Assembly (NCBI RefSeq): GCF_001886955.1 | Contig: NZ_CP016804.1 | Span: forward strand, 682,001-746,000 | Source: Halodesulfurarchaeum formicicum | GTDB lineage: Archaea; Halobacteriota; Halobacteria; Halobacteriales; Halobacteriaceae | Direction: 5' to 3' | Length of the DNA: 64,000 bases | Part shown: positions 8,617 to 24,086 of the stretch, in pieces | How positions within the stretch are numbered: position 1 is the first letter of the stretch | Layout: each line of letters opens with the position of its first letter | Notes under the pieces: generated by a model | Told to the model about the DNA's origin: nothing | What the model saw: only the letters and a program-made list of their open reading frames with translations | Databases searched by the model: none | Made by a program: the position numbers and the translations under genes

Positions 8617-8701
<85 letters not shown>

Positions 8702-8713
8702 TTTTCAGCGACT

Positions 8714-8754
8714 CTCACCTCGCAGCGACCAGCTTGCTGTGTCGCTGCGATGAG
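8714..8754 (+). repeat. Hairpin just downstream of tRNA-Leu
   Basis: Arms TCGCAGCGAC (8720-8729) and GTCGCTGCGA (8741-8750), perfect over 10 bp, extended by CTCA/TGAG (8714-8717, 8751-8754) beyond a two-base bulge. It is the first of three hairpins in the gene-free 275 bp between tRNA-Leu and acyP. Open frames across this stretch translate tRNA-like sequence and are not credible proteins. Confidence 0.7.
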
Positions 8755-8776
8755 ATCGCGGGCGGAAATGCGGTCG

Positions 8777-8837
8777 CCGGATTCGAGCCCTGGAAACCGA
8801 GCGAAGCGAGGTTTCCTTTGGTTCGAATCCGGTCCCA
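8777..8837 (+). repeat. tRNA-Leu T-arm-ended inverted-repeat unit
   Basis: Left end CCGGATTCGAGCC (8777-8789) and right end GGTTCGAATCCGG (8820-8832) are inverted copies with one G-U-compatible mismatch. Both equal the T-arm of the adjacent tRNA-Leu, and the right end continues as TCCCA exactly like the tRNA 3' end. Between them sits the stem AAACC/GGTTT around GAGCGAAGCGA. The core GGAAACCGAGCGA ... GCGAGGTTT also occurs in the unit nearest tRNA-Ser at 23870-23948 (minus strand). Function unknown. Confidence 0.75.
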
Positions 8838-8838
8838 T

Positions 8839-8886
8839 CCCCCACTTTTTCCGAGCGGCTGGGACAGCCGCTCGCAAAACTTGGGG
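8839..8886 (+). repeat. Long hairpin after the T-arm unit
   Basis: Inner arms CGAGCGGCTG (8852-8861) and CAGCCGCTCG (8865-8874) form a perfect 10-bp stem with a 3-nt loop. It is extended outward by TTTT/AAAA and CCCCA/TGGGG with small bulges, about 19 pairs in all. It could act as the 3' boundary of the tRNA-Leu transcript or be part of the same repeat system as the T-arm unit before it. Confidence 0.65.
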
Positions 8887-8976
8887 AAAAGACCGCTAAC
8901 GGCTGTTTTAGATTAGATTACAGCGTCGTGAGTACTCCAAGGTGGATTTTAGTGCTCGCTCCAGCAAGCAACACTC

Positions 8977-23344: not shown

Positions 23345-24001
23345 GCGCGGTGCCTTCGGCACACGCGCTGGGTGTTGTAGAAACGGTGCGGAGGGGATTT
23401 GAACCACGCCCGAGAACCTGCGTTCCGCAGAACCTCGGTCTGATTCAAATCCCACGACACCGTTTGCTCCTCGCCTTCGCTCGTCGCAAAACGGTGCGGA
23501 GGGGATTTGAACCGGAGCCAGACGTGCTCGCTTCGCTGCGCGCGACTGGCAGGGTTCAAATCCCTCACTCCGTTCAACCTGAAGTATTGCGCGGTGCCTA
23601 CGGCACACGCGCAGAGTTTTGTAGAAGCGGTGAGGAGGGGATTTGAACCACGCCCGAGAACCTGCGTTCCGCAGAACCTCGGTCTGATTCAAATCCTCAC
23701 ACCGTTCGCTCCTCGCCTTCGCTCGTCGCAAAACGGTGCGGAGGGGATTTGAACCGGAGCCAGACGTGCTCGCTTCGCTGCGCGCGACTGGCAGGGTTCA
23801 AATCCCTCATTCCGTTCAACCTGAAGTATTGCGCGGTGCCTACGGCACACGCGCAGAGTTTTGTAGAAGCGGTGAGGAGGGGATTTGAACCAGCGCAAAC
23901 CTCGCTCGTCCCTCGCTCGGTTTCCTGGGTTCAAATCCTCACACCGTTCAACCTGAAGCGTTGCGCGGTGCCTTCGGCACACGCGCTGGGTAGTATAGAA
24001 A
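23345..24001 (-). repeat. Array of tRNA-Ser T-arm-ended inverted-repeat units, 3' of tRNA-Ser
   Basis: Fills the 686 bp between the DoxX operon and tRNA-Ser. Reading from the tRNA on the minus strand: spacer, unit E (23948-23870), spacer, D (23816-23734), 27-nt linker, C (23706-23628), spacer, B (23574-23492), linker, A (23464-23384), spacer. Each unit is 79-83 bp, ends in the last ~20 nt of the tRNA (TTCAAATCC...CACCG), and begins with its inverted copy GGATTTGAA. The spacers (53 nt) hold hairpin GCGCGGTGCC/GGCACaCGCGC. A+B and C+D are a tandem duplication of about 243 bp. No credible protein is encoded. Confidence 0.85.
23870..23948 (-). repeat. T-arm unit nearest tRNA-Ser, sharing its core with the tRNA-Leu unit
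   Basis: On the minus strand GGATTTGAACC and GGTTCAAATCC are perfect inverted ends matching the tRNA-Ser T-arm. The inside carries GGAAACCGAGCGA and GCGAGGTTT, identical to the inside of the unit after tRNA-Leu (8777-8837), although the ends differ and match tRNA-Leu there. Core conserved, ends tRNA-specific. Confidence 0.75.
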
Positions 24002-24086
24002 CGGTGAGGAGGGGATTTGAACCCCTGAGGCTATGATAGCCACCTGCTCTCAAGGCAGGCGCGTTGGGCCGCTTCGCTACCTCACC
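24002..24086 (-). tRNA. tRNA-Ser (anticodon UGA)
   Basis: An 85-nt class II tRNA. The acceptor stem is GGTGAGG (24086-24080) with CCTCACC, discriminator G at 24002. T8-A9 are present. The anticodon stem CCTGC/GCAGG has loop CTTGAGA, giving TGA. The long variable arm is GGCTATCATAGCC. The T-arm is AGGGG TTCAAAT CCCCT. No intron and no encoded CCA. Five partial copies of its 3' end follow downstream on the same strand. Confidence 0.97.

Follow-up and report, generated by a model that had tools for sequence, protein, structure and literature searches.

The closest known case to the repeats analyzed here is that of the 178-bp repeats in the tyrT/tyrV locus of Escherichia coli (rttR / rtT RNA). 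In strain K-12 (locus L472, NC_000913.3:1286200-1287400), three exact copies of the 19-nt tRNA-Tyr 3' end occur at offsets 159, 337 and 515 in tyrV/tyrT, and each unit holds an inverted partner of the tRNA-Tyr end, GGGGAAGGAT, which matches at 10 of 11 nucleotides (shuffle frequency 0.0012). In CRISPR arrays, a duplicated block is repeated and growth takes place beside the leader. The outer core sites of integron attC sites follow the consensus GTTRRRY / RYYYAAC. Casposase integration at tRNA 3' ends gives rise to duplications of 14–15 bp (PMC6977970). The short mobile repeats (SMRs) and PATEs of Haloquadratum are short, non-coding palindromic repeats of ∼80–110 bp with unexplained mobilisation; they are scattered among other mobile elements and, as described, have no link to tRNA genes and produce no target duplication (PMC3119063).

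In Halodesulfurarchaeum formicicum, the window (the whole stretch of 64,000 nucleotides analyzed here) carries an array of hairpin units behind a tRNA-Ser gene, for which no earlier description was found in the open-access literature. As in the E. coli tyrT repeats, the units are arranged in tandem directly 3' of a tRNA, their tail copies start in the T-loop, and each unit includes an inverted partner. The E. coli units, examined at one locus, are identical and 178 bp long, whereas the haloarchaeal modules occur at hundreds of loci, have a median length of 113 bp, and carry varied cores that are common to several tRNAs; neither the 178-bp period nor the rtT RNA sequence family was found among them.

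The likeness to the other systems is also partial. As in CRISPR arrays, a block is repeated (here the tRNA tail) and the copy proximal to the tRNA is the freshest (in 64 arrays versus 10, a gradient that gene conversion could mimic), but the inserts are not unique pieces of captured DNA: cores and spacers reappear at different tRNAs, and a comparison with 50,697 phage records gave no match. The tail block present beside the inserts may correspond to the duplicated target of casposons and CRISPR arrays, the empty sites being those given by congener comparison; unlike the casposon duplications, the block measures about 20–22 bp and lies wholly within the tRNA, and the modules have neither terminal inverted repeats nor genes. 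With the attachment sites of tyrosine integrases the modules share a block of identity that spans the T-loop through the discriminator, and a regenerated tRNA, but they are ∼110 bp in length, contain no integrase, and their block follows the host tRNA. They resemble the SMRs and PATEs, as described, in size and palindromes, and differ in that 25 of the 26 strict matches in the genome are at tRNA 3' ends. By inspection, the attC core site was absent from the units, which have GTTCAAAT or GTTCGAAT, with C at the fourth place.

Organization of the tRNA-Ser(UGA) array

The host gene, tRNA-Ser(UGA), occupies 24002..24086 of the minus strand (ARAGORN; Rfam RF00005, 59.2 bits), and its 3' block (24002–24021) served as the reference for scoring tail mismatches. 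The five units that the first-pass annotation had claimed 3' of this gene are real, and all of them lie on the minus strand. Each terminates in a 20-nt copy of the host tail, which runs from the TTC of the T-loop as far as the discriminator G and shows 0–1 mismatch per 20 nt in all five; this bears out the statement that every unit ends as a tRNA does. In addition, each unit carries in its 5' arm an inverted partner of the T-loop (its reverse complement), and every unit therefore folds into a long hairpin.

Adjacent to the gene is spacer 1 (23950..24001, minus strand, as are all parts below), with the hairpin GCGCGTGTGCCGAAGGCACCGCGC at 23963–23986. It is followed by the tRNA-proximal unit E (23870..23949; 5' arm 23930–23948), which has the core CCCAGG..GCGCTGG and an exact tail copy at 23870–23889. 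A GCGCG-type spacer hairpin (23831..23854) lies between E and unit D (23734..23816; 5' arm 23797–23815); the latter contains the core CCCTGCCAG..CTGGCTCCGG and a tail copy with one mismatch (23734–23753). Units D and C are separated by a spacer of a second type, TTTTGCGACGAGCGAAGGCGAGGAGCGAA (23705..23733), which recurs 242 bp away in near-identical form between B and A. Unit C (23628..23707; 5' arm 23688–23706; core TCAGACCGAGG..GGGCGTGG) again possesses an exact tail copy (23628–23647), and the GCGCG-type hairpin between C and B is found at 23589..23612. Unit B (23492..23574; 5' arm 23555–23573) has the same core as D, and the distal unit A (23384..23463; 5' arm 23444–23462) the same core as C; their tail copies (23492–23511 and 23384–23403, respectively) each contain one mismatch. 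A leftover GCGCG spacer hairpin (23345..23368) lies past unit A.

The division of the cores into three types (A=C, B=D and a separate E) was thus correctly recognized at the outset. The hairpin GCGCG..GGCAC had been assigned to every spacer, and its four copies were indeed located (at 23963, 23831, 23589 and 23345), but it is absent from some spacers: the GCGCG type alternates with the second type, and the fourth copy is the leftover past the final unit.

Distribution within the genome

Comparison of the tRNA-Ser array with its own genome by BLAST (2.09 Mb, one contig) placed nearly all matches 3' of tRNA genes, and the same arrangement, considered at a single locus in the first-pass annotation, recurs behind a large share of the tRNA genes of this genome. 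The strict pattern was detected in 26 places, 25 of which are 3' of a tRNA gene, including the intron-containing tRNA-Trp. The remaining match carries the tail of tRNA-Arg(TCG) but is located ∼55 kb from that tRNA, beside a tyrosine integrase, and the module appears to have been displaced by an integrated island. This putative island of ∼55 kb in tRNA-Arg(TCG) (G000:C1:1166560-1221320; loci L470 and L471) has a tyrosine integrase of 371 aa at 20 bp from its far end and a 13-bp attachment block, CCTGCAACGCCCA, at both ends; the displaced module also carries this block.

A further single module of the family was identified in the window at 8702..8842 of the plus strand, 3' of tRNA-Leu(GAG) (8617–8701). 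The tRNA-Ser(CGA) that ARAGORN predicts at 8749–8842 (plus strand) is a false call on this hairpin module, and a similar false call was observed in a congener behind tRNA-Ala(GGC) (L127). A second repeat of ∼77 bp (CCACTTTTTCCGAGGGGC...GGGGAAAAAGACCGCTAGCGGCTG; about 8841–8908 in the window) is present in nine copies in the genome, all of them 3' of tRNA genes, and acts as another spacer type.

Distribution across the Halobacteria

The inverted T-loop pattern was present in 382 of 392 Halobacteria genomes, a strict-pattern count that includes a few self-matching tRNA-Ser genes (e.g., L099 and L101), while a reversed-pattern control gave 0 in all of them. In the other Halobacteriota, the inverted T-loop pattern was found at chance level only. 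Within a class-wide sample of pattern matches, most loci were 3' of a tRNA and none were 5'. A core-only pattern, built on a single core and free of tRNA sequence, was searched for in 84,980 species. The matches listed were all from Halobacteria, but for one contig that bears the label Bacteroidetes. Of 81 places among the matches listed, 71 were situated 50–343 nt downstream of a tRNA, on the same strand and in one orientation; the unit-D core type was, again among the matches listed, spread through the Halobacteria. The exceptional contig (QS_9_68_14, locus L257) contains a tRNA-Val with a typical haloarchaeal module and is probably misbinned.

A virus-borne origin was considered and rejected, there being no match in the 50,697 phage records and one plasmid match. 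In viral contigs, most matches were class II tRNA-Ser genes, whose own sequence satisfies the pattern, and some of the class-wide counts consequently include tRNA-Ser genes. One true unit was observed beside tRNA-Glu in a viral contig (L355, IMG/VR contig 3300000875_000004), perhaps a provirus edge with host DNA.

Host-matched arms and shared cores

The sequences flanking the cores follow the host tRNA. For the 12 nt that follow the T-loop, the 168 units compared agreed with their own tRNA at 11.0 of 12 positions on average, versus 5.3 for other tRNAs, and this 3' arm was perfect in 120 of them. The T-loop variants AAAT, GAAT and AATT are mirrored in the 5' arm by ATTTGAA, ATTCGAA and AATTGAA, respectively, and the acceptor part of the 5' arm matched the host tRNA above all permutations. 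The complement of the 5' arm covers the acceptor, the discriminator and then the T-run after the tRNA, such that the parts follow one another as tail, spacer hairpin, inverted tail, core hairpin and tail. The cores themselves are shared between hosts: the 40-nt unit-E core recurs unchanged at tRNA-Pro(TGG) in the same genome, and the core TCAGGGAGGAGCTTTGCTCCGACCGTGG is identical at tRNA-Lys and tRNA-Arg(CCG). Since the tail block follows the host although the cores are shared, the block is copied from the target and not carried in.

The edges of the copied block are sharp. Over 294 copies, agreement with the tRNA was 94–99% in the stretch that starts one nucleotide ahead of the T-loop and ends with the discriminator, versus near chance (about 20–33%) upstream, beyond the last 1–2 nt, and ∼50% in the T-rich stretch after the discriminator; T-rich runs are common both after tRNAs and after tail copies.

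On the basis of these sequence comparisons, we consider at about even odds (a probability just below one half) that the modules are miniature non-coding hairpin cassettes of Halobacteria, inserted at tRNA 3' ends with target duplication and then multiplied by recombination. Each cassette would be built of a spacer hairpin, then a 5' arm with the complement of the tRNA end, and, after the core hairpin, a tail that repeats the tRNA end directly. It would enter at the T-loop/3' end of the tRNA gene and duplicate its target, which would restore the tRNA and leave the tail copy as a mark of the far edge of the cassette. New cassettes would arrive beside the tRNA, while older ones would be displaced away from it and decay; the repeated tails and hairpins would then recombine with one another, and cassettes would be duplicated, swapped or deleted in this way, the 245-bp duplication in the tRNA-Ser array being a candidate example. 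Neither the IS200-type (Y1) transposases nor the tyrosine integrases could be retained as partners, as both are found with and without units, and their counts do not track unit number.

Target duplication alone leaves unexplained why the 5' arm, placed as it is between two mobile parts, also matches the host. For the T-loop covariation, selection for pairing by compensatory change was examined as an explanation and rejected, because compensation is not visible: at 60 positions where the tail copy has drifted, the 5' arm retains the host base at 47 and goes with the copy at 5, some of these being indel shifts. Four loci first taken as compensated (L254, L257, L258 and L267) were left uncounted; at L257, the variant of the supposedly compensated unit is also present in the host T-loop. 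The retention of the host base under drift indicates that the T-loop covariation reflects how the units arise, and the tRNA seems to serve as the template for both arms at that time.

Such templating favors the main rival to insertion, which involves no dedicated enzyme. Replication would stall at the tRNA gene, and the nascent strands would fold back at hairpins and copy the tail twice, first inverted and then direct, to give the chain of tail, spacer hairpin, inverted tail, core hairpin and tail; homologous recombination and gene conversion would then spread and homogenize the pieces. Host-templated arms that later drift without compensation, and a 5' arm whose complement takes in the acceptor, the discriminator and the T-run, are in agreement with this course of events. 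On the other hand, the presence of the same core types at many tRNAs across families, strictly on the 3' side and in one orientation, is not readily explained by it, nor are identical 40-nt cores at unlinked tRNAs where the flanking homology amounts to ∼8–11 nt only. Fold-back copying is accordingly held here to be a tentative alternative, rather less likely than insertion.

Growth and turnover of the arrays

The proposal that A+B and C+D derive from a segmental duplication was substantiated: a tandem duplication of 245 bp spans 23345..23831, and its halves (23345–23588 and 23589–23831) are 95.1% identical with one gap, the inner 194 bp being 99% identical. The accompanying suggestion of recent duplication and stepwise growth also agrees with the data, in that the duplication is real, the copy number differs in a congener (two units at the tRNA-Ser locus versus five here), and proximal copies are fresher. 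In 112 arrays with at least two copies, the tRNA-proximal tail copy had 0.74 mismatches on average and the most distal one 2.27; the proximal copy was fresher in 64 arrays and the distal copy in 10 (p=9e-9). This gradient could also be obtained by gene conversion from the tRNA.

Among 40 orthologous tRNA genes in two congeners, modules were present in both species at 13 and in one species only at 12. At tRNA-Gly(TCC), a module is found in one congener and none in the other, with flanks that are 94% identical; precise empty tRNA sites of this kind are known solely from congener comparison. The same core was common to both congeners at 8 of the 13 doubly occupied loci, versus 8% between different tRNAs, which means that the arrays persist and, together with a tandem duplication that is clearly operating, suits fold-back copying as well. 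Arrays of identical modules elsewhere show pure tandem growth. At L195 (G012:C1:1877000-1879600), at least six near-identical modules with a period of 111 bp are aligned behind tRNA-Gly(TCC), and at L205 (G329:C2:1034500-1036400) four near-identical modules of ∼86 bp follow tRNA-Leu(CAA).

The polarity of the arrays also admits a more specific version of insertion, which we regard as unlikely, namely a leader-polarized process like that of CRISPR without immunity. An integrase would write small single-stranded DNA hairpins beside tRNAs, with the tRNA as the leader and its tail of 20–22 bp in the role of the repeat. The tyrT repeats of E. coli would, on this view, be what is left of the same reaction in a bacterium.

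Folding and strand preference

Insertion with target duplication, the preferred mechanism, leaves the nature of the inserted molecule to be considered. Relative to shuffled sequences, the five tRNA-Ser units of the minus strand gave z-scores of −3.5 to −5.5 when folded as DNA and −3.0 to −5.8 as RNA. A comparison of the two strands in 246 distinct cores gave an advantage of 2.3 kcal/mol to the folded tRNA strand over its complement (170 cores versus 75; p=5e-12); the significance of both the strand bias and the loop type is inflated, since the cores are related by descent. Of the 246 cores, 171 contain a C-GNA-G loop flanked by a complementary pair, whereas shuffles gave 36 and the mirror motif on the other strand 15; none of the 246 cores has an apical GNRA or UUCG loop. 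Minihairpins of the d(GCGAAGC) type are extremely stable as DNA, with a Tm of 78 °C (PMC4686876). The prevalence of C-GNA-G loops and the lack of GNRA and UUCG loops point to single-stranded DNA rather than RNA and, together with the strand bias, may hint at a single-stranded DNA substrate in which one strand folds.

The same strand preference, the excess of G.U over A.C among the inner pairs (135 versus 6) and the RNA z-scores of the units would be expected if the units were RNAs, produced by read-through from the tRNA promoter and released or capped as hairpins by tRNA processing enzymes, in the manner of E. coli rtT RNA. This reading is improbable, given the loops favored by DNA (PMC4686876) in place of GNRA or UUCG, the T-rich runs that commonly follow tRNAs and copies, the uncompensated drift of the arms, and the lack of any Rfam family besides tRNA above cut-off for the units. 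It is further opposed by the missing 5' half of the T-stem, and on this point the initial view that the unit ends would be read by RNase Z or the CCA enzyme was abandoned as the main reading: the copy begins 1–2 nt before the T-loop, agreement upstream falls to about 20–33%, and a proper T-arm usually cannot form. The complete T-arm and acceptor stem that tRNase Z recognizes were not found in the units.

That spare tails are kept as decoy or relief attachment sites for the tRNA-targeting integrases of viruses and islands is very improbable, for although the putative ∼55 kb island sits between tRNA-Arg(TCG) and its module, and island edge and module both carry CCTGCAACGCCCA, the island used the tRNA and not the copy (one case), and a decoy would need neither hairpin cores nor host-complementary 5' arms. 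Both the RNA and the decoy functions are less well supported than insertion or fold-back copying.

Implications

The modules constitute a repeat family that resides beside many tRNA genes in nearly every sampled genome of the Halobacteria. The family seeds false tRNA calls in annotations, as at 8749–8842 of the window. It also provides hundreds of natural examples of tRNA-tail copying and array growth, and makes the tyrT repeats of E. coli testable as a general process.
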